A stretch of DNA of 64,000 bases, from NCBI RefSeq assembly GCF_000763495.1, contig NZ_CP009576.1:320001-384000 (forward strand), given 5' to 3'. Each line of letters begins with the position of its first letter. The first letter of the stretch is position 1. The stretch comes from Listeria ivanovii subsp. londoniensis. Lineage in GTDB: Bacteria > Bacillota > Bacilli > Lactobacillales > Listeriaceae. Below the pieces are notes generated by a model. That model was given only the letters and a program-made list of their open reading frames with translations. It was not told the origin of the DNA and searched no databases. Made by a program: the position numbers and the translations under genes. Positions 4,958 through 49,993 of this stretch are shown here, in pieces.

Positions 4958-5985
4958 ATGTATTTGAACCTCGGCTTAGTTCTTGGTTAGAGAATGATGG
5001 GGACGATGATGATGTAGTACTTAGTTCGCGAATCCGACTAGCTAGGAATTTGAAAAACGAACTATTTCCGATTTATGAGCAAAAAGAAGGAACTATAGAT
5101 ACTATTTCCGCTGTTTTTGATAATAATTTTACCCTATTTAAAATGAACGAAATTTCTAAGCTTGAGAAGGCCCTTTTAGTGGAGAAACATTTAATTAGTC
5201 CTTATTTGATGAGCAAGAGTCAGCATGGGGCTGTTCTTTTAAATGAGGAAGAGAATGTTAGTATTATGTTGAATGAAGAGGATCATTTAAGAATTCAGTG
5301 TATGACACCGGGATTAAGGTTATTTGATGCACTGGAAGCAGCCCTCCAAATTGATAGTTATGTAGAAGATAAGGTTGTTTATGCTTTCGATAAGCAATTT
5401 GGATATTTGACTAGTTGTGTGACGAATATTGGGACTGGGATGAGAGCTTCTGTTATGGTTCATTTGCCAGGGCTTGTCGCGACTAAAAGGATTAAAAATG
5501 TTGTCGAAGCGGTTAGGAGTCTTGGTTTTGTGGTAAGAGGTATATACGGGGAAGGTAGCATGCCCGCGAGTAATATCTTCCAAGTATCTAATCAAATAAC
5601 ACTTGGAAAAACAGAAACGGAAATTGTGGAAGATTTAACGCAAGTAATGGAACAAATTATCATGCAAGAACGAGTAGCAAGAACGACGTTGAAGCAAAAA
5701 TTTCATATAGCGCTTGAGGACAGAGTTTTTAGGTCATATGGTTTACTTAGAAATTGTCGGATTATCTCTATTCAAGAAGCAGCAGATGCTATTTCTGATA
5801 TTCGGCTAGGTGTTGAATTAGGATTTTTCGAACATATTTCTCGCCAAAAAATGAATGAATTGGTACTATTCTCGCAACCAGCTTTTTTAAGGAAAGAAGC
5901 TGGACGAGATATGGATGCCTTAGAAGAGAAAGTAATACGAGCCAAAGTGATTCGCGGGATTTTGGGCGATAATGGAATAGGCTGA
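4954..5985 (+). CDS. mcsB: McsB protein-arginine kinase
   Basis: This 343-residue protein has the phosphagen-kinase catalytic domain. The [13 protein letters not shown] motif is near residues 22-34, and GEGS followed by [15 protein letters not shown] is near residues 208-227. McsB phosphorylates arginines on CtsR and on misfolded proteins, marking them for ClpCP. It overlaps mcsA by four bases and is followed after 19 bases by clpC. The length is close to that of characterised McsB proteins. Confidence 0.97.
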
Positions 5986-6004
5986 GGATAAGGAGGAAAC
6001 AACA

Positions 6005-8467
6005 ATGATGTTTGGACGTTTTACGCAAAGAGCTCAGAAAGTACTCGCTTTGTCACAAGAAGAGGCAATGCGCTTGAATCATAGTAATTTAGGTACGGAA
6101 CATATACTGCTTGGACTTGTCAGAGAGGGAGAAGGTATCGCAGCAAAAGCACTCTATGAACTGGGTGTTAGTGCTGAAAAAGTTCAACAAGAAGTAGAAG
6201 GATTAATTGGTCATGGCGAAAAAGCTGTAACGACGATTCAATATACACCTCGAGCTAAAAAGGTAATTGAACTTTCAATGGATGAAGCTCGTAAACTTGG
6301 ACATACTTATGTTGGAACAGAGCATATTTTATTGGGGCTTATTCGTGAAGGTGAAGGAGTTGCTGCTCGAGTTTTAAGCAATCTAGGTATTAGCTTGAAT
6401 AAAGCTAGACAACAAGTATTGCAACTACTTGGTGGCGGAGATGCAACTGGAGCTGGAAGGCAAACTAATACACAAGCGACGCCGACATTAGACAGTTTAG
6501 CTCGCGATTTGACTGTCATTGCTCGTGAGGATAATTTGGACCCGGTTATTGGCCGTTCTAAAGAAATTCAACGTGTGATTGAAGTGTTAAGTCGTCGAAC
6601 AAAAAATAATCCAGTTCTTATTGGGGAACCAGGTGTAGGTAAAACAGCGATTGCTGAGGGGCTAGCACAGCAAATTGTACGTAATGAGGTCCCTGAGACG
6701 TTGCGAGGAAAACGTGTAATGACGCTTGATATGGGGACTGTCGTTGCGGGAACTAAATATCGTGGTGAGTTTGAAGACCGTTTGAAAAAAGTAATGGATG
6801 AAATTCGCCAAGCTGGAAATGTGATTTTATTTATTGACGAACTTCATACGTTAATTGGTGCTGGTGGAGCAGAAGGTGCGATTGATGCATCTAACATTTT
6901 GAAGCCACCTTTAGCTCGTGGAGAGTTGCAATGTATTGGCGCAACAACGCTTGATGAGTACCGGAAATATATTGAAAAAGATGCAGCACTCGAAAGACGT
7001 TTCCAACCTATTAAGGTAGATGAACCGTCTGTTGAGGAGTCGATTCAAATTTTGCATGGTTTACGTGATCGTTATGAAGCGCATCACCGGGTTGCTATTA
7101 CTGATGCGGCGCTTGATGCAGCAGTTCGCCTGTCTGACCGTTATATATCTGACCGGTTCTTACCTGATAAAGCGATTGATGTGATTGATGAAGCTGGTTC
7201 CAAAGTACGCTTGAAATCTTTTACAACACCTAAAAATGTAAAAGAAATGGAAAATAATTTAACAGATTTGAAAAAGGAAAAAGATGCAGCTGTGCAAGGT
7301 CAAGAATTCGAAAAAGCAGCAGCATTAAGAGATAAAGAGCATAAACTTAAAAAATCTTTAGAAGAAACAAAGGCAAATTGGAAAGAAAAACAAGGGCTTG
7401 ATCATAGTGAAGTAACAGAAGATATAGTTGCAGAAGTTGTAGCTAGTTGGACCGGGATTCCGGTTGCAAAACTTGCTGAAACTGAAACAAATAAATTACT
7501 TAACATGGAAAAACTTTTACATGAGCGAGTAATTGGTCAGGATGCTGCTGTTAAAGCTGTATCCCTAGCCGTTCGTCGGGCGCGTGCTGGACTTAAAGAT
7601 CCAAAGCGTCCAATAGGTTCCTTTATTTTCCTTGGACCAACTGGTGTTGGAAAAACCGAACTTGCTCGTGCGCTTGCGGAGTCAATGTTTGGTGATGAAG
7701 ATTCAATGATTCGGATTGATATGTCAGAGTATATGGAGAAATTTTCAACTGCTCGTTTAGTTGGTGCTCCTCCCGGTTATGTTGGTTATGAAGAAGGTGG
7801 ACAACTAACTGAGAAAGTCCGTCAAAAACCTTATTCGGTAGTTCTTTTAGATGAGATTGAAAAAGCACATCCAGATGTATTTAATATGTTGTTACAAGTG
7901 CTAGATGATGGTCGTTTAACAGATTCTAAAGGACGTGTAGTTGATTTTAGAAACACGGTTATCATCATGACCTCGAATATTGGAGCACAAGAAATGAAAC
8001 AAGATAAATCGATGGGCTTTAATGTAATTGACCCACTTAAAGATCATAAAGCAATGGAACACCGCGTTTTACAAGATTTAAAACAAGCGTTCCGTCCAGA
8101 GTTTATCAATCGTATCGATGAAACTATTGTGTTCCATTCGCTTCAAGAGAAAGAGCTAAAACAAATTGTAACGCTTCTAACTGCACAATTAACTAAACGC
8201 CTTGCTGAACGTGATATTCATGTGAAGCTAACAGAAGGCGCGAAAGCTAAAATTGCAAAAGACGGTTATGACCCAGAATACGGGGCTCGTCCTTTGAAAC
8301 GTGCGATTCAAAAAGAAGTAGAGGATATGCTTTCTGAAGAATTGCTTCGTGGAAATATCAAAGTGGGAGATACAATTGAAATTGGTGTGAAAGATGGGAA
8401 GCTGGAAGTTAGACAAAAAGCTTCAACTAAAAAGAGAGCTACACCTAAAAAAGTTAAAACAAAATAA
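6005..8467 (+). CDS. clpC: ATP-dependent Clp unfoldase ClpC
   Basis: This 820-residue AAA+ unfoldase feeds substrates to ClpP. In order it has two N-terminal Clp repeats (about 1-150), AAA domain 1 with Walker A GEPGVGKT near 208-215, a UVR-containing middle domain (about 420-455) that binds McsA/MecA-type adaptors, and AAA domain 2 with Walker A GPTGVGKT near 544-551. SMGFNV near residue 669 corresponds to the ClpP-docking loop. The tail is lysine-rich. A strong RBS (GGAGG) precedes ATGATG, and a terminator follows at 8475. Confidence 0.98.
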
Positions 8468-41060: not shown

Positions 41061-42539
<1,479 letters not shown>

Positions 42540-42545
42540 TATTAG

Positions 42546-42577
42546 AAACAGCCTTGATTGATTGAGGCTGTTTTTTT
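42546..42577 (+). terminator. GH1 gene terminator
   Basis: AAACAGCCT / AGGCTGTTT stem with a T7 run just after the stop codon. Confidence 0.9.
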
Positions 42578-42692
42578 AATAATTGGAGTGAGATAGAAAA
42601 GTGAATTATTTCTGTTTTTAGAACTAAAATGGAAGAATTTTAACAAATAACAAAAAAATCAGAAAATAAAGTTTGGAATAATCGATTTTTCA

Positions 42693-42721
42693 TTGTGGGC
42701 TATGATTTCTTATGCTATAAT
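42693..42721 (+). promoter_or_regulatory. Extended -10 promoter of the peptidase/ABC locus
   Basis: TTGTGG and TATAAT are spaced by 17 bases, with TGC directly before the -10. This is a strong SigA-type promoter. The expected start (about 42728) almost coincides with ATG 42729. Confidence 0.8.
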
Positions 42722-42728
42722 TTTTCCG

Positions 42729-42911
42729 ATGAATAGAGAGCGAACTAGAAGAAATCAAAAACATGAAGTATTAAAAGTAATTATGCATGAGGGTAACGTA
42801 GTTCATTGTTTTTCTAGTAGGGATATCAGTAGTAGAATATTGATATGCCATTCAACAAGTGGTAAATACAGTGTAAATCTAAATATAGAATCTACTTTAA
42901 AAAAGATATAA
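42729..42911 (+). CDS. Small ORF (60 codons), candidate precursor peptide
   Basis: The frame from ATG 42729 to TAA 42911 encodes a basic N-terminal half (NRERTRRNQKHEVLKV) and a C-terminal half with two Cys residues (VVHCFSS ... ILICHST) and several Ser residues. There is no SD. The ATG lies about 7 bases past the -10 element, so the mRNA would be nearly leaderless. It could be the substrate of the downstream peptidase and transporters, a decayed gene, or chance. An internal ATG at 42783 also has no SD. Confidence 0.4.
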   Translation: MNRERTRRNQKHEVLKVIMHEGNVVHCFSSRDISSRILICHSTSGKYSVNLNIESTLKKI

Positions 42912-42969
42912 AGAAATATAGTTACAACATGATTCTTCATTCATCTAAAAACTAAAAGGATAAACTAAT

Positions 42970-43470
42970 ATGAAGATAACTAAAAATGGAATATACATAA
43001 TCGTCGGTGCAAACGGAGCAGGAAAAACGACATTAGCCAAAAGAATACTACAAGCTAATAAAAATATTTGCTGCATGATGAAACAAGATGATAACCAAAT
43101 ATTAGAGCATGAGCCGGTTTTGACGAATATTACGATGAATGAGATTTCGGACGAACGGGTCATCAACTTCCTAAAAGAAAAACAATTAGACTATTTATTA
43201 ACCAAAAAAAGTAAATTTTTAAGTGGTGGCGAAAAACGACTAATTAATCTTTTGAGAGTAGTTTTATCAAATCAAGAAGTATTGATATTGGACGAACCAT
43301 CCAATGATTTAGATATTGATGTATTTGATAAAGCAAAAGAAATAATCTATCAAGTAGCTAAAAACAAAATAGTCCTGTTAATCACACACGATGATCGTTT
43401 CACAAAATTCGATAAAAAATTAGAAATTACAAAAAATAAAATTTATGATACAACTGAAAACAATTTGTAG
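42970..43470 (+). CDS. Minimal ABC transporter ATP-binding protein
   Basis: This 166-residue ATPase has Walker A GANGAGKT at 13-20, a Q-loop region (MMKQDD), signature LSGGEKR near 83-89, Walker B VLILDEP near 106-112 and H-loop THDD. Walker A begins only 13 residues from the start, so the usual N-terminal strands and the aromatic A-loop are absent. AAGGA lies 9 bases before the ATG. The stop codon abuts ATG 43471, and the cognate permease follows. Confidence 0.85.
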   Translation: MKITKNGIYIIVGANGAGKTTLAKRILQANKNICCMMKQDDNQILEHEPVLTNITMNEISDERVINFLKEKQLDYLLTKKSKFLSGGEKRLINLLRVVLSNQEVLILDEPSNDLDIDVFDKAKEIIYQVAKNKIVLLITHDDRFTKFDKKLEITKNKIYDTTENNL

Positions 43471-43521
43471 ATGAAATTTATTTTAAAAAGGAAAGCCCAA
43501 GCGAACGAACCATCAAAATAA
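43471..43521 (+). other. Overlapping start ORF with a candidate -1 slippery site
   Basis: ATG 43471 directly follows the ATPase stop and opens a 16-codon frame ending at TAA 43519-43521. At 43482-43488 it reads T-TTA-AAA, a classic X-XXY-YYZ slippery heptamer. A -1 shift there enters the permease frame. The joined product would start MKFILKKESPSER and run into a continuous membrane helix before the first in-frame ATG at 43566. A one-base deletion in the A tract is the alternative. Confidence 0.6.
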
Positions 43522-43565
43522 AACCTAGAAAAACGTATTTCTTATATATATTTTATTTATTATGC

Positions 43566-44648
43566 ATGACGATTATCGCTATTTTTTTAGTGAACTTATT
43601 AGTAGAAAATAACGAAGAAACAAAACCTATAAGCAAGAAAGGGACATATCAACTCGCAACACTCTACAGCGCTAATGCGTCTTCTTACGACAATACCGAA
43701 GCCATTAATACAATACTTATACAATCAGCGACTAAATGGAATAAAACGGAATTTTTTAATGAGGAAAATCGCGTTAATGAAGATGAGTATTATGAAGAAA
43801 CAATAGACTTGAAAAAAGATACCTATCAAGAATTAATCTATTTAGAGTTGTATAATCCAGAAACAAGAGAGTTTATGAATATCAAAGAATTAATGATGGA
43901 AAAATTACGCAAAGACTTAAAGCTTAAAGAAAACATAGAACTTATTAGTGACGACGAAAATTATTATAAAAATAGCGAGTATCCCTCTTTTTATGTAGCA
44001 AGCAATTCCGTTTTAACAGATGAGAAAATAGCCCAAATAGAGGCTTGGGGTTATAAGCTTCGTTATAGCGATACTTTGGAACCAAATCAGATAGAAGTAG
44101 ATTTCAATCCGGGGTTGTACTCGATAGTCTTAGCTGAAATTGATCAACAAGATGTTTTGGTTACAGAAGCTCGTATTAAATTAAAAGAAAAAGATTCATT
44201 TTTTAATTTTTTAGAAGAAAATAAATTATACGCTAAAAAAATGTTTGTTAAAGGCTATGAACCCGAGTTATTAAATGCGGAGGTCAATAAGTACAACAAT
44301 GCAGTCATGTTAATAAAAAAAGTAGTCCTTTTTATTGGCTTACTATTACTATTAGAATTAATTATACTATTTATGTATGAGGTTAATTTTAAAAATAGTT
44401 ATAGCACGGTAGCTTATTATGGTTACAACAAAAAAGAGTTACTTCAATTTAGGAAAAAAACTTATTTAACAACACAGTTTAAAATTTTTTCCATTATTAG
44501 TACACTTTTTTATATTTTGACGATGTGGATGTTAGTTCATTCGTTTATTATTGTAACAATTATTGGCGTGACAACTTTATTCTACGTATTTGCATATATT
44601 ATCATCCCACTAACTATTAAATACAACATTAGAAAAGCAATCCTATGA
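43566..44648 (+). CDS. ABC transporter permease (FtsX/MacB-like), N-terminus possibly via frameshift
   Basis: This permease is at least 360 residues. After an N-terminal membrane helix there is an extracellular domain (about 20-235) and about three C-terminal helices (247-270, about 300-325, 330-350), the layout of FtsX/MacB-type permeases. The first canonical start, ATG 43566, falls inside the first helix: the frame is open back to 43458 and the upstream codons (TYFLYIFYLLC) complete the helix. The true protein probably begins at ATG 43471 after a -1 shift. Its stop overlaps the next start (ATGA). Confidence 0.75.
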   Translation: MTIIAIFLVNLLVENNEETKPISKKGTYQLATLYSANASSYDNTEAINTILIQSATKWNKTEFFNEENRVNEDEYYEETIDLKKDTYQELIYLELYNPETREFMNIKELMMEKLRKDLKLKENIELISDDENYYKNSEYPSFYVASNSVLTDEKIAQIEAWGYKLRYSDTLEPNQIEVDFNPGLYSIVLAEIDQQDVLVTEARIKLKEKDSFFNFLEENKLYAKKMFVKGYEPELLNAEVNKYNNAVMLIKKVVLFIGLLLLLELIILFMYEVNFKNSYSTVAYYGYNKKELLQFRKKTYLTTQFKIFSIISTLFYILTMWMLVHSFIIVTIIGVTTLFYVFAYIIIPLTIKYNIRKAIL

Positions 44649-46423
44649 CTAAAACAAATAAATTTAGTATTTTTTCTATCAAAAAACCAGGAATATATAC
44701 CATTACCGGAAGTAACGGAAGTGGAAAAACAACTTTTATTGAAAACGAATTAAAGGGAAATACTGTAAAAGCAAAAGATGTAGCATATTTTGCGCAAAAA
44801 AACTGGAAATATAAAACATCTGTGGAGAAATATTTACACTTTCCAGAAACAAATCCTAAATTAGTAGAGAAGTACTGTGAGGCATTGACTATTGATAGCT
44901 ATTGCTTAGATAAAGATATTCAATCATTAAGTGGTGGAGAGTTTGTTAAAGTAGAGTTGGTTAGAACACTATCTTTAGACACTCCAATACTTGTTTTTGA
45001 TGAGCCTACTAATAATTTAGACAATGGTTCCACGAAGATACTAGCTAACATCTTAAGCGAATTGTCCAAAACGAAAATAATCTACTTAGTGAGCCATGAC
45101 ATACGCCTCGAACATTTATTTGATAAAACGATTCTTATAAATAAATCGGAAGTAGAAGTTTCGCCTTTAATTGAATTAGAAAATAGTAGCATACCAATAA
45201 AGGAAAAGAATGTAGTAGCAAATGGGAAAATGATTACTTATTTAGTAACATCAAAATTTAATTTCTTGATGTTGGCTTTTATTGTTATATTAACAATCTT
45301 ACTAACTAATATTGTCTCCAATGTTATTGCAAGCTCCGTTCCGATTGAAGACGATCTGGCAAGTGATTATGATTTCGAATTATTGGATATTGCGGAGAAT
45401 TATTCCAGATATTTTGCTATTGAAATGACGGATAGTGAATTAGAAAACAAATTCCAAGAACCTAATTCTCTCTCTGCAAATGAGTTAATAGAACTGCAAA
45501 ATAAAAAATATATGGAGAAAATATATGTGGTAGATGATAGTTATACAAATGAACTTACTTTAGATAATTCCAAGTTCGAAGTTCTTGCGCTTCCAGAAAT
45601 AATAACTAGTTCTCCTAATTATTTAAATGCTTTCCCAGTTACTAAAATGCATCTAGTCAAAGGTCGTTTGCCAAAAGATGATGCTAAAGAAATTGCACTA
45701 TCTTATGCACAGATTAAAAAATATTTTAATGATAATGTAAGTGAAGAATCGGCAATAGGAGGAAAAGTGGAATTTAAAGACGATTCTTATGAAATTGTTG
45801 GTATTGTTAACGCTCCAGTAGCGGCGATTTCTTACTCAAGTCAAATGCAGCAATATGGGGCAGTGGAAGTTACAGATAAATCTTCCGAGCAACTAAACAA
45901 CATATTGTTAAAACTTAAAAAGCAAAACTGTGATAATCCTAATTTCTCCATTATTTTCATGAAACTAGCCAGTAAAAACCAACATGAACTATTAGATTAT
46001 TTAAAAGATCATGGACCGAGCTATCAATATGCATCAAATTATGTAGATAGTGCTTTACAATTATCCTTCTACAAACAAAACTTAACAAAAATCACCCTCA
46101 TATCTGTACTTTTCTCTTTGATAGTATCCGTATTAATTTTCATCTTTGGAAGAAAATCATTTAGTTTAATCAATGGATTTTTAAATGATATGTCCAATTT
46201 GAATTTTAGACCTAAAAAGAATAAGCGGTTTATTTATTTGATAATGCTGTTAGACTTTTTGGTATGTATTCCTGCATTTTTAATAGTAAGTCGACTTATT
46301 ATAGGGTATAATATTGGTATTTTAATGGTACTTCCAGCGCTAGTAATTTCATTGATCATGTTCATGCTAACCTTGCTACTAATGAGTTACCAGGATAAAA
46401 AGAATGATTTTAGAAATTTATAA
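44645..46423 (+). CDS. Fused ABC ATPase-permease, MacB-like
   Basis: This 592-residue fusion has an N-terminal ATPase (Walker A GSNGSGKT at 22-29, signature LSGGE near 96-100, Walker B ILVFDEP near 114-120), then a membrane helix (about 206-228). A large extracellular domain (about 230-480) has MacB-type features such as KVEFKDDSYEIVGIV, and three helices end the protein. ATPase-permease fusions of this kind export or extract peptides at the membrane in characterised systems. It overlaps the permease by 4 bases and the peptidase by 20 bases. Confidence 0.87.
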   Translation: MTKTNKFSIFSIKKPGIYTITGSNGSGKTTFIENELKGNTVKAKDVAYFAQKNWKYKTSVEKYLHFPETNPKLVEKYCEALTIDSYCLDKDIQSLSGGEFVKVELVRTLSLDTPILVFDEPTNNLDNGSTKILANILSELSKTKIIYLVSHDIRLEHLFDKTILINKSEVEVSPLIELENSSIPIKEKNVVANGKMITYLVTSKFNFLMLAFIVILTILLTNIVSNVIASSVPIEDDLASDYDFELLDIAENYSRYFAIEMTDSELENKFQEPNSLSANELIELQNKKYMEKIYVVDDSYTNELTLDNSKFEVLALPEIITSSPNYLNAFPVTKMHLVKGRLPKDDAKEIALSYAQIKKYFNDNVSEESAIGGKVEFKDDSYEIVGIVNAPVAAISYSSQMQQYGAVEVTDKSSEQLNNILLKLKKQNCDNPNFSIIFMKLASKNQHELLDYLKDHGPSYQYASNYVDSALQLSFYKQNLTKITLISVLFSLIVSVLIFIFGRKSFSLINGFLNDMSNLNFRPKKNKRFIYLIMLLDFLVCIPAFLIVSRLIIGYNIGILMVLPALVISLIMFMLTLLLMSYQDKKNDFRNL

Positions 46424-46814
46424 GAGTTGGATTATCGTACTTGTATTGCACGAACTAACACACATATTTTTTGTGCTTCTTTTCAGAGGGAAAATAGATA
46501 AAGTCGTTTTTGGTAATTTTATTTTTCTCCACATAAAAAAAGTGGCTATTTCTCCAATTATTATCAATTGTTCTGTTTCATTTGAAGAAGGGAAGGACTG
46601 GGGATTATGGAAACAAGCACTTGTTTTATTAATGCCAGCTGCCGTCAATCTGACAACGGGGGTGCTGGTGGGCTATGATTTCCTATTCATAAAAATTTTC
46701 AGCTTGTTTATTGGTATCAATTCATTGCTCCCAATTCCTTCCTTACAAACAGACGGCTTTCTCATGCTGGAGGAATTTCAAAAATTTTATAAAAATCGTA
46801 AAAGAGGTCAGTGA
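46404..46814 (+). CDS. Small M50 (site-2-protease-like) membrane metallopeptidase
   Basis: This 136-residue membrane protein carries both S2P signatures. HELTH (HExxH) at 16-20 lies in the first helix, and NSLLPIPSLQTDG at 106-118 matches the NxxPxPxxDG motif with the third zinc ligand Asp. It is much shorter than most M50 enzymes. It overlaps the ABC fusion by 20 bases and ends the operon. By analogy with YydH/EpeP of B. subtilis, it may cleave a precursor peptide within the membrane. The substrate is not proven. Confidence 0.85.
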   Translation: MILEIYKSWIIVLVLHELTHIFFVLLFRGKIDKVVFGNFIFLHIKKVAISPIIINCSVSFEEGKDWGLWKQALVLLMPAAVNLTTGVLVGYDFLFIKIFSLFIGINSLLPIPSLQTDGFLMLEEFQKFYKNRKRGQ

Positions 46815-46836
46815 TGCATTTGCTGGTCTTTTTTTG
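46805..46836 (+). terminator. Terminator of the peptidase/ABC locus
   Basis: AGGTCAG / CTGGTCT stem (with G-U pairs) followed by T7. It overlaps the last codons of the peptidase gene. Confidence 0.65.
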
Positions 46837-46907: not shown

Positions 46908-48047
46908 ATGGAACAACAAAAAAAGCTACAAATTTTAAAAGACATGATTAACATCAATTCAACAAATGGACATGAAGAACAGGTCGCGAATTATTTGCAA
47001 AAATTGTTAGCAGAATACAGCATCCAAGCTGAAAAGGTGCACTATGACACAGATCGTGCGAGTCTTATAAGTGAAATCGGCGCGGAGCAAGGACGAGTGT
47101 TGGCTTTTTCCGGACATATGGATGTGGTTGATGCTGGGGATGTTTCTAAATGGACTTTTCCGCCATTTGAAGCAACAGAATCGGATGGTAAAATATATGG
47201 CCGTGGTTCTACTGATATGAAATCTGGTTTAGCCGCGATGGTCATTGCGATGATTGAACTTCATGAAGAAAAAACCAAATTAAATGGGAAAATCAAATTA
47301 TTAGCGACAGTTGGAGAAGAAGTTGGAGAGCTTGGAGCGGAACAACTTACCACACAAGGTTATGCAGATGATTTAGATGGTTTGATTATCGGCGAACCGA
47401 GTGGACATCGAATTGTTTATGCACATAAAGGTTCGATTAATTACACGGTCAAATCTACTGGTAAAAATGCGCATAGTTCAATGCCGGAATTCGGTGTTAA
47501 TGCGATTGATAATTTGCTACTATTTTATAATGAAGTAGAAAAATTTGCGAAATCGGTTGACGCTACAAACGAAATATTAGGTGATTTTATTCATAACGTC
47601 ACCGTAATTGATGGTGGAAATCAAGTGAATAGTATCCCTGAAAAAGCACAACTTCAAGGGAATATTCGCTCCATTCCAGAAATGAATAATGAAACAGTGA
47701 AACAAGTGCTAGTGAAGATTATTAATGAGCTAAATAAACAGGAAAATGTGACGCTAGAGTTAATATTTGATTATGACAAACAACCAGTGTTTAGCGATAA
47801 AAATTCAGAATTAGTAAATGTTGCTAAGCGTGTAGCCAGTGATATCATCAAAGAAGAAATTCCTTTACTTGGTATTTCTGGAACAACAGATGCAGCAGAA
47901 TTCACCAAAGCTAAAAAAACATTCCCAGTAATTATTTTTGGTCCGGGAAACGAAACCCCTCACCAAGTAAATGAAAATGTTTCGATTGACAATTATTTAG
48001 AGATGGTAGATGTATACAAACGAATTGCAGTTGAGTTTTTAGGATAA
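46908..48047 (+). CDS. M20-family deacylase/peptidase (ArgE/DapE type)
   Basis: This 379-residue M20 enzyme has zinc ligands in SGHMDVVDAGD near 66-76, GRGSTDMKSG near 97-106 and GEEVGELG near 134-141, plus a dimerisation domain (about 175-285). It is usually annotated as succinyl-diaminopimelate desuccinylase. Because Bacillales commonly use the acetylase DAP branch, a different amide substrate is quite possible. It corresponds to the lmo0265 position. The RBS is GGAAGG plus GAGG. Confidence 0.87.
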   Translation: MEQQKKLQILKDMININSTNGHEEQVANYLQKLLAEYSIQAEKVHYDTDRASLISEIGAEQGRVLAFSGHMDVVDAGDVSKWTFPPFEATESDGKIYGRGSTDMKSGLAAMVIAMIELHEEKTKLNGKIKLLATVGEEVGELGAEQLTTQGYADDLDGLIIGEPSGHRIVYAHKGSINYTVKSTGKNAHSSMPEFGVNAIDNLLLFYNEVEKFAKSVDATNEILGDFIHNVTVIDGGNQVNSIPEKAQLQGNIRSIPEMNNETVKQVLVKIINELNKQENVTLELIFDYDKQPVFSDKNSELVNVAKRVASDIIKEEIPLLGISGTTDAAEFTKAKKTFPVIIFGPGNETPHQVNENVSIDNYLEMVDVYKRIAVEFLG

Positions 48048-48205: not shown

Positions 48206-49993
48206 ATGAAATTAAAAATACTGTTAGTTCGTATTGCACTGACTTTAGTAGTGATGATGACGGTCAGTATTTGGATGGGAACCAGTCCAGGAATAGAAGT
48301 TCAAGCAGAAAGCATCACACAGCCAACACCAATTAAAGATATATTTCCAGATCCGAATTTTGCTGAGCGAATAAGGGAAGGTTTTGGAAAAGCTAGCGTA
48401 GATGATGTTGTCTCGCAAACAGAACTTAATCAAATCTATACTTTAGATAGTCCAAGTAGGAATATCCAATCAATTGAAGGAATACAATACTTGAATAATT
48501 TAGATAGACTTTATTTTGGGGAAAATAATATAAGTGATATAAGTCAGCTTAGTGGAGTAACAAGTCTAACTTATGTAGATGTTGGAGAAAATAATATAAG
48601 CAATCTAAGTCCCCTCGCTAATTTGACTAATTTAGAGTCTTTAGGTTTAGATAAAAATAATATAAGTGATATAAGTAACTTGGCTGGTTTATCTAAGTTA
48701 TCCAATTTGTCGCTAAATGATAATAACTTAGACAATTTGAGTGATGTAAGTGGCTTAATTAACTTGAAGGAACTGAAAGCAGGAGGCAATAGTATCAGTG
48801 ATTTGACCCCTTTATCTAACTTAATCAATATGGTGAGTTTATATTTGGCAGATAATAATATCAGTGATTTAAGTCCGTTAGCAAAATTAACCAAAATAGA
48901 TTATCTGAATTTATATACTAATAATATCAGCAATATAAGTGTCGTAGCAAACTTTACTGATATATGGGGGCTGTACTTGGGTGAAAATAATATAACTGAC
49001 ATAGCAGTTTTGACTAATTTAACAGGTTTAGGAGAATTGCATTTGGCAGATAATGATATTGGTGATATAAGTAATCTTGCTAACTTAACTAACCTCACTG
49101 AATTACAATTAGACAATACCAACATAACCGATTTAAATCCCTTATCCAATTTAACCAACCTAGAATACTTATATTTGGAAAATAACCGAATAAGTGATAT
49201 AAAAAGTTTGCAACCATTAAGTAATTTATTGTTTTTGGATTTGGATAATAATCAAATAAGGGATATTAGCATTTTGCCAGATTCGCCACCACACGTATTG
49301 GATTTTGAGGTGCAAGCACGAAACCAACAAATAATTAATAGTCCGATAAATTTTCAAACGGAGCTAGTTATTCCAAATAATGTTTTCGATGATTCGGGTA
49401 AGGTAGTGTCTCCAGCGACGATAAGTGATAATGGGAGATACACGAGTCCAGATATTACCTGGAATCTACCTGACTTTAAAAGCGAAGTGAGCTATACATT
49501 TAATAAAGAAGGAAATAATATAACTTTCAGTGGAACGGTGAAACAACCTCTTATTGGAGAATACAATGTTATTTTTGATGTAGATGGTGTAGAAAAGCAA
49601 GATAAGGCAATCGTTGGTACATTATTAACTGAACCAACACCACCAACGAAACAAGGTTATACATTTACTGGATGGTATGATGCGAAAACGAATGGCAACA
49701 AGTGGAATTTTGCTACAGATAAAATGCCGGAAAAAGATATAACTTTATATGCGCAGTTTAGTAAAGATTCAAGTCCAGATAAAGGCGGTGGGGGTTCCAT
49801 ACTGGATACAAATGGAAATATAAATGGCAAGGAAAAAAATCCTACCAACGACAATACGAAAACTATAAAGATTAAAAGTAACAAGAATAGCGAATTGCCA
49901 ACAACAGGAGATAGTGGCAATAACCAACCTATTTTTATAGGATTTATTCTTTTGGGGCTTGGAGTAGCTGGTTTACGGAAAGCACAACTTTAA
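48206..49993 (+). CDS. LPXTG-anchored internalin-family protein
   Basis: This 595-residue surface protein has a signal peptide (1 to about 35), an internalin cap beginning ITQPTPIKDIFPDPNFAE, and about eleven 22-residue leucine-rich repeats (about 95-345). The Ig-like inter-repeat region follows (about 350-465), then one Listeria-type repeat (FTGWYDAKTNGNKWNF), a short polar linker, and a sortase signal LPTTGD with a hydrophobic tail. It would be linked to peptidoglycan by sortase A. It lies downstream of the M20 gene, not upstream as inlG/H/E do in L. monocytogenes. The host ligand is unknown. Confidence 0.93.
   Translation: MKLKILLVRIALTLVVMMTVSIWMGTSPGIEVQAESITQPTPIKDIFPDPNFAERIREGFGKASVDDVVSQTELNQIYTLDSPSRNIQSIEGIQYLNNLDRLYFGENNISDISQLSGVTSLTYVDVGENNISNLSPLANLTNLESLGLDKNNISDISNLAGLSKLSNLSLNDNNLDNLSDVSGLINLKELKAGGNSISDLTPLSNLINMVSLYLADNNISDLSPLAKLTKIDYLNLYTNNISNISVVANFTDIWGLYLGENNITDIAVLTNLTGLGELHLADNDIGDISNLANLTNLTELQLDNTNITDLNPLSNLTNLEYLYLENNRISDIKSLQPLSNLLFLDLDNNQIRDISILPDSPPHVLDFEVQARNQQIINSPINFQTELVIPNNVFDDSGKVVSPATISDNGRYTSPDITWNLPDFKSEVSYTFNKEGNNITFSGTVKQPLIGEYNVIFDVDGVEKQDKAIVGTLLTEPTPPTKQGYTFTGWYDAKTNGNKWNFATDKMPEKDITLYAQFSKDSSPDKGGGGSILDTNGNINGKEKNPTNDNTKTIKIKSNKNSELPTTGDSGNNQPIFIGFILLGLGVAGLRKAQL

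Follow-up and report, generated by a model that had tools for sequence, protein, structure and literature searches.

Relatives of the MacB/LolCDE transporters function in peptide resistance and export among Gram-positive bacteria. These transporters share an order of an ATPase, one helix, a large outer domain, and further helices. In the epe operon of Bacillus subtilis (epeXEPAB or yydFGHIJ), an M50 protease is encoded together with an ATP-binding cassette (ABC) transporter, and the product is membrane-targeted. The available part of one report gives this cluster as epeX, epeE (a radical SAM epimerase), epeP, epeA, and epeB (PMC7614699). In lactococcin 972-type loci, including Lmo2774-2776, the gene for an exported protein, which has 131-137 residues in those of Listeria, precedes an ABC system, and Lmo2776 of Listeria monocytogenes is a studied case in the excerpted text of PMC7076858. 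One or more ABC-transporter open reading frames (ORFs) have also been reported from the inlGHE region in L. seeligeri FSL S4-171 and in L. marthii, according to the available sections of a 2010 study by den Bakker et al. (PMC3019230). In this study, we analyzed a gene cassette between bglA and dapE, at positions 42693..46836 of a 64,000-nucleotide stretch of Listeria ivanovii subsp. londoniensis (NZ_CP009576.1, positions 320,001 to 384,000). This stretch, hereafter the window, comes from a single-contig Listeria genome of 3,045,035 bp. We found that the window copy is a degraded member of a real and conserved operon family that is apparently undescribed. Since its first gene is gone and its first ABC gene is broken, the window cassette is probably non-producing.

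We compared nine cassette loci, namely the window, L002 (L. grandensis), L003 (L. riparia), L017 (the L. monocytogenes record NZ_CP030101.1), L018, L019, L020, L021, and L096 (a locus of genome G101). In the relatives, the same slot holds a fuller plan: a 147-residue exported protein, two fused ABC ATPase-permeases of ~555 and ~592 residues (A1P1 and AP2), and an M50 metalloprotease of 133-136 residues. An earlier note, made from the window sequence alone, had described five ORFs, all of which exist, although three of them had been misread. Comparison with the relatives altered the probable substrate as well as the layout of the transporter, and thus one decayed copy read alone had yielded a wrong parts list. 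A maturation, export, or immunity operon built around the M50 protease, as first proposed, is still the best idea, but its substrate and its transporter layout differ from that proposal and the window copy looks inactivated.

The first ABC gene of the window was broken into two pieces. The ATPase domain A1, its N-terminal part, lies at 42970..43470 (166 residues; PF00005, E 1.9e-15), and the permease domain P1, its C-terminal part, was placed by homology at 43470..44648 and has four hydrophobic segments; these and the other cassette parts, as well as bglA and dapE, are on the + strand. The P1 ORF counted from its first ATG is 43566-44648 (360 residues) and matched no Pfam or NCBIfam family. 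The permease homology starts at 43470, in a new frame after the ATPase stop and 96 bases upstream of that ATG, so that the ATG at 43566 falls inside the first transmembrane segment. The frame changes near 43,460, within the last codons of the ATPase ORF, and inspection of the junction by eye revealed no slippery heptamer for programmed frameshifting. A1P1 is a single ORF of 553-559 residues in four of the nine loci (L017, L019, L021, and L096). As judged by homology, the "minimal ATPase" and the separate FtsX/MacB-like permease of the earlier note are therefore two pieces of one fused half-transporter. There are two ABC modules, as had been claimed, but both are fused half-transporters. The ATPase domains of A1 and AP2 share 31% identity (E 7e-18), and no likeness between the two permease halves was found in a profile comparison. 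A1P1 was broken in five of the nine loci and at differing places, with a frame change inside the permease in L018, an early stop in L020, and frame changes in L002, L003, and the window. This scatter fits a dispensable trait, and some cassette breaks, above all in draft assemblies, may be sequencing errors.

The gene upstream of A1P1 is missing from the window. This 441-bp gene for the 147-residue protein was intact in seven of the nine loci, split in L017, and absent in the window alone. The protein has 146 residues in L019 and a TTG start in L002, L003, and L096. Its copies showed 65-73% identity to that of L020, and the L021 copy was identical to it. One N-terminal hydrophobic helix (residues 6-24 in L021) is followed by RGVD and then by a conserved outer part. 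A tblastn search with the L020 protein against window positions 42501-43000 gave nothing significant. The promoter and leader of the lost gene are still recognizable at 42690..42768, with the ribosome-binding region altered; the alignment score beat all 300 shuffles for each of four relatives, with a narrow margin for L018. A 55-bp spacer upstream of A1 (42915..42969) is likewise conserved, with 84% identity in two relatives. The middle, 42768-42925, was rejected as a remnant of the gene, because its score was reached by 31 to 260 of 300 shuffles in all five relatives. As this segment is not recognizable as a remnant, deletion, replacement, and strong divergence of the gene are all possible. 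In L096, a DDE transposase gene (5559-6812; PF01609, 7e-19) lies between the 147-residue protein gene and A1P1.

A 60-codon ORF (42729..42911) occupies the place of this gene in the window and is probably not a gene. It begins 7 nt downstream of the -10 element, where transcription of the lost gene presumably started, and no Shine-Dalgarno sequence was found upstream of it by eye. Pfam and NCBIfam scans of the ORF gave no match. Among the other 24 Listeria genomes, there was no convincing relative; a single match (E 0.026) ran antisense to bglA. The length of the frame points the other way. The longest ATG ORF in 42540-42969 has 69 codons, in the same frame with an earlier ATG; of 2000 shuffles, only 0.1% reached this length on the + strand, and 1.5% did so on either strand. 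Nevertheless, we rejected the ORF as a precursor peptide on its non-conservation and the missing Shine-Dalgarno sequence, and very probably it is not the peptide. The candidate product is instead the exported protein lost here.

The reading of the window as an active operon, in which the 60-codon ORF encodes the precursor and is joined by a minimal ATPase, a separate permease, a fused ABC protein, and the M50 protease, agrees with the presence of all the ORFs, with the length of the small frame, which exceeds the shuffle expectation, and with the promoter-like and terminator-like elements that bracket the set. This reading is highly improbable, since the small ORF is unconserved, lacks a detectable ribosome-binding site, and starts at the presumed transcription start, and since the ATPase and permease are fused in the relatives. 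The single promoter and single terminator of the earlier note were borne out in part. Five relatives have TGATAYAAT at the aligned position of the extended -10 element TGCTATAAT (42713..42721), but this element was not in the promoter scan output. The terminator-like hairpin at 46800..46834 has only three G-C pairs and overlaps the end of the M50 gene. The statement that the genes adjoin or overlap from the ATPase on holds for the P1 and AP2 ORFs (4-bp overlap) and the AP2 and M50 ORFs (20-bp overlap), but the ATPase ORF and the permease ORF from ATG 43566 are separated by 95 bp.

The M50 gene of the window is intact (46404..46814; 136 residues). Its match to PF02163 (E 9.6e-5) scored 22.3 bits, under the cut-off of 27.2; the relative in L021 scored 12.6 bits, and a LiaK-family control M50 protein was also under the cut-off with 23.2 bits. 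HELTH is present, as had been noted, but the second motif is NSLLPIPSLQTDG, that is, N-x3-P-x-P-x4-D-G and not NxxPxPxxDG. HExxH and P-x-P-x-L-x-T-D-G are kept in all seven aligned M50 sequences, the window included, and the N of the motif in six of them; it is S in L002, and also S in L096. HExxH sits inside the hydrophobic segment 9-27. From the placement of these motifs, the M50 protein of the cassette is a predicted site-2 protease.

AP2 (44645..46423; 592 residues) is an intact fused ABC ATPase-permease with a MacB-like order (PF00005, 1.4e-10). Its match to MacB_PCD scored 22.3 bits, under the cut-off of 27, and P1 had no MacB_PCD match. Both permeases follow a layout of one helix, ~240-260 outer residues, and then further helices. 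Hydropathy above the threshold used gave four helices in the window P1 and three each in AP2 and in the L021 A1P1. The AlphaFold transporter model was unusable, with a mean predicted local distance difference test (pLDDT) score of 34.2. PADLOC matches in the cassette were set aside as generic ATPase matches. AP2 was a single open frame in eight of the nine loci (broken in L003), and the M50 gene was open in all nine. In two further copies, found in phage-labelled records, AP2 was broken near residue 150.

Next to the full cassette, there is a permease-only version. An AP2-type permease with neither ATPase nor M50 gene occupies the same slot in four of 25 Listeria genomes (G002, G003, G015, and G022), where it lies between bglA and internalin genes (L022 8506-9666, L023 7616-8776, L024 8316-9476, and L025 8229-9323). 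This gene has ~381 residues from its ATG, shows 44-47% identity to the permease domain of AP2, and is preceded by its own promoter-like TATGCTATAAT element, seen by eye. The ratio of nonsynonymous to synonymous substitution rates (dN/dS) was 0.22-0.28 among the three unmasked copies; the copy in G015 is partly masked. The stand-alone permease is a possible orphan immunity gene. Persistence of an AP2-type permease alone is expected of an immunity gene, and a sensor role would look alike.

We investigated how the cassette is distributed. Among 395 genomes of the order, the M50 profile matched nine, which all belong to the Listeriaceae (five of this genus and four of a second genus). The profile of the 147-residue protein gave eight strong full-length matches in 295 genomes, which are the nine M50-bearing genomes minus that of the window; we disregarded four other matches, which were weak and partial (E 0.002-0.0065). 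In 198 genomes, the P1 profile matched six Listeriaceae genomes, plus one weak fragment, and the AP2 permease profile matched nine, plus two weak fragments. Within the genus, the M50 gene occurs in five of 25 genomes, the full-length fused ABC gene in the same five, and AP2 homologues in nine. Co-occurrence of the M50 and ABC genes, on which the earlier note had staked its proposal, thus mostly held, the four other genomes having the permease without ATPase or M50.

As an accessory insert, the cassette belongs to a hot spot between bglA and dapE. Other genomes have internalin genes in this interval, which we take to be the inlGHE slot. In the 15 Listeria genomes whose dapE is 85-100% identical to that of the window, the slot held the cassette in five, the permease alone in four, and only internalins in one, and bglA stood directly before dapE in five. 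The internalins-only case may be seen in G016, where internalins precede dapE and no AP2 match was found. The other ten of the 25 genomes were unplaced, four having no dapE match at the limit used and six a match of 66-72%. The cassette genes are A+T-rich (G+C 0.29-0.34, compared to 0.378 for the window), which fits a moved insert. A phage or plasmid origin was considered and rejected: only three hits for the 147-residue protein came from those collections, all of them holding rpoC-bglA-cassette-internalins-dapE, i.e., chromosome. No relative of the 147-residue protein or of the M50 protein was found on viral contigs. L017, a 2,899,513-bp L. monocytogenes "plasmid" record, carries rpoC and its neighbours and is evidently chromosome. 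L097 (OR848104.1, 'Listeria phage LM 4-14-1') and L153 (OR846786.1, 'Listeria phage LM 4-11-1') look like host DNA, since both hold this chromosomal gene order.

The cassette genes have been under purifying selection as proteins between species. Between loci, dN/dS was 0.07-0.19 for A1 (0.30 for the close pair L020-L021), 0.18-0.20 for P1 (0.27 for L020-L021, with no protein change between L017 and L021), and 0.13-0.21 for AP2 (0.50 for the near-identical pair L017-L021). It was 0.06-0.14 for the M50 gene (0.45 for the close pair L020-L021) and 0.03-0.26 for the 147-residue protein gene (no protein change between L020 and L021). Against L018 and L019, the window gave 0.21 for AP2 and 0.08-0.13 for M50. 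For comparison, the border genes showed 0.02-0.035 (bglA) and 0.07-0.08 (dapE). The breakage in the window looks recent, because its A1 piece still has a dN/dS of 0.07-0.19. For the window copy only, one may propose that the whole cassette is functionless and that AP2 and M50 have simply not decayed so far, which would agree with both readings of the intact operon given below. Two of the four genes are lost or broken, and the low divergence of AP2 and M50 may predate the loss. We consider this proposal rather unlikely, as AP2 and M50 keep open frames and low dN/dS, and permease-only versions persist in other species.

We compared the cassette with the epe-type systems. The parallel with epeXEPAB drawn in the earlier note proved to be an analogy only. 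Around HExxH, the cassette M50 protein shows local likeness to a LiaK/EpeP-family protein (BLASTP E 7e-5; hhalign 85% over 28 columns). Against the family model NF058609, it scored 11.9 bits (E 0.13; cut-off 225), with the HExxH segment alone aligning, and it is ~90 residues shorter before HExxH than the 251-residue LiaK-family protein. The ATPase domains matched the ATPase of an epe-type locus weakly (E 7e-7 and 7e-5), as between any ABC ATPases. The ABC parts of the cassette are fused and two in number, and their permeases are unlike those of the epe-type locus. EpeX is a short peptide, whereas the cassette has no EpeX-like peptide and its conserved first gene encodes 147 residues. A radical SAM enzyme, the epimerase of epe, was absent from the five window ORFs (Pfam), as the earlier note had said, and no additional gene was present from bglA to the end of the cassette in L019 and L021. 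In the control locus L109, radical SAM (PF04055, 3.8e-13), LiaK-family M50, and ABC genes were found side by side. Membership of the epipeptides was thus rejected by the radical SAM, LiaK-family M50, and EpeX tests.

Membership of the lactococcin 972 type was rejected as well, since neither precursor nor permease is linked by profile and ten such loci gave no M50 match. Of 148 genomes of the order, 21 had lactococcin 972-type matches, including five of the genus, and the window's own genome had none. PF09683 had no match in four scanned homologues of the 147-residue protein, and hhalign of this protein against nine lactococcin 972 precursors gave a probability of 1.8%. Such loci encode a permease of 596-735 residues and, in nine of ten, a separate ATPase of ~190-217 residues, whereas the cassette has two fused ATPase-permeases. 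The cassette permeases showed no link to those of lactococcin 972 loci (hhalign 20.7% over 31 columns, and 2.4%), and the M50 profile had no match in the ten fetched loci. One Listeria genome (G010) carries two differing lactococcin 972-type loci, L087 and L088.

The cassette shares with MacB/LolCDE the order of its domains and the weak MacB_PCD match of AP2. It differs in being two unlike half-transporters, with MacB_PCD under the cut-off, in ATPase domains that score best with ABC-F type models, and in having no gene for a MacA/TolC-type partner. The ABC ORFs reported for the inlGHE region are probably the present cassette or its permease-only form. They occupy the same slot, and the available sections of PMC3019230 do not mention a 147-residue protein gene, an M50 gene, a fusion, or decay. 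In the accessible text of the Creative Commons-licensed PMC literature, we found no description of the 147-residue protein gene or the cassette M50 gene, and PMC3019230 contained the sole previous mention that we came across.

The substrates of site-2 proteases are membrane proteins with a single span, which are cleaved inside the membrane. As the 147-residue protein is the only single-span membrane protein in the cassette, it is the proposed substrate of the M50 protease. Our best explanation, which is tentative and somewhat short of probable, is that the window copy is the decayed form of an accessory operon specific to Listeriaceae, with a bacteriocin-like function, in which an exported protein would be freed from its anchor by the M50 protease and the producer would be protected by a MacB-like ABC pair. 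In this mechanism, Sec would insert the precursor, which would be anchored by its N-terminal helix, with an outer part of unassigned fold. The M50 protease would cut the anchor helix within the membrane and free an outer domain of ~115 residues, which may act on competing bacteria. A1P1 and AP2 would form one heterodimeric MacB-like transporter, which, driven by ATP, may eject the product from the producer membrane for self-protection or aid its release. In the window copy, no product would be expected, and AP2 and M50 may remain as relics or residual immunity. The comparison directly showed the plan of the genes, their co-occurrence and breakage, the position at the hot spot, and purifying selection between species; we infer the relation of the M50 protease to its substrate, the bacteriocin-like activity, and the pairing and role of the transporter. 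A bolder version seems unlikely to us: a protein bacteriocin system of a new class, whose signal-anchored product is freed by a miniature site-2 protease rather than by a signal peptidase or a peptidase-containing exporter, with immunity from a heterodimer of two fused MacB-like half-transporters and with the lone permease as an orphan immunity gene.

Besides the length of the small frame, several points weigh against the bacteriocin-like explanation. The 147-residue protein had no sequence link to a known toxin or bacteriocin in family, profile, and PDB searches, and its structure prediction (mean pLDDT 40.9) gave no usable fold; apart from ATPase-domain matches, PDB sequence searches gave nothing usable for the cassette proteins. 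The M50 and AP2 frames of the window are still open. As a feature of a single assembly, the frame change in A1P1 could stem from a sequencing error, but the loss of the 147-residue protein gene could not. Strict co-occurrence fits a sensing or envelope-repair system equally well.

M50 proteases in signalling commonly cut single-span membrane proteins, and the cassette may accordingly be viewed as an envelope-stress or signalling module, with the 147-residue protein as sensor or adaptor, a signal-triggered cut by the M50 protease, and the ABC pair as a BceAB-type sensor or flippase against foreign antimicrobial peptides. The permease topology of one helix, a large outer domain, and further helices is consistent with such a module, as are the permease-only versions kept in four genomes with the dN/dS given above for the three unmasked copies. 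However, no two-component or sigma/anti-sigma gene is among the cassette ORFs, and the window lost the 147-residue protein gene, yet AP2 and M50 are open. We regard a signalling role as doubtful.

The hot spot is bordered on the left by bglA (41079..42539; PF00232, 7e-133) and on the right by the dapE-type M20 peptidase gene (46908..48047; PF01546, 1.6e-41). The rpoC protein was 99.2-99.6% identical in the unmasked syntenic copies, and the relatives that carry names are Listeria. Directly after dapE, at 48206-49993, the window has a class 1 internalin-like gene with leucine-rich repeats, a Listeria-Bacteroides repeat, and an LPTTG-type anchor, and L018 has a 93% identical counterpart in the same place.

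These results add an uncharacterised operon, polymorphic in presence and absence, to a slot known for internalin genes, in an L. monocytogenes record and in other Listeria species. If the operon is bacteriocin-like, it would be a further means of Listeria strain competition, with a maturation step, the intramembrane cleavage of an anchored protein, that would be testable with few genes.

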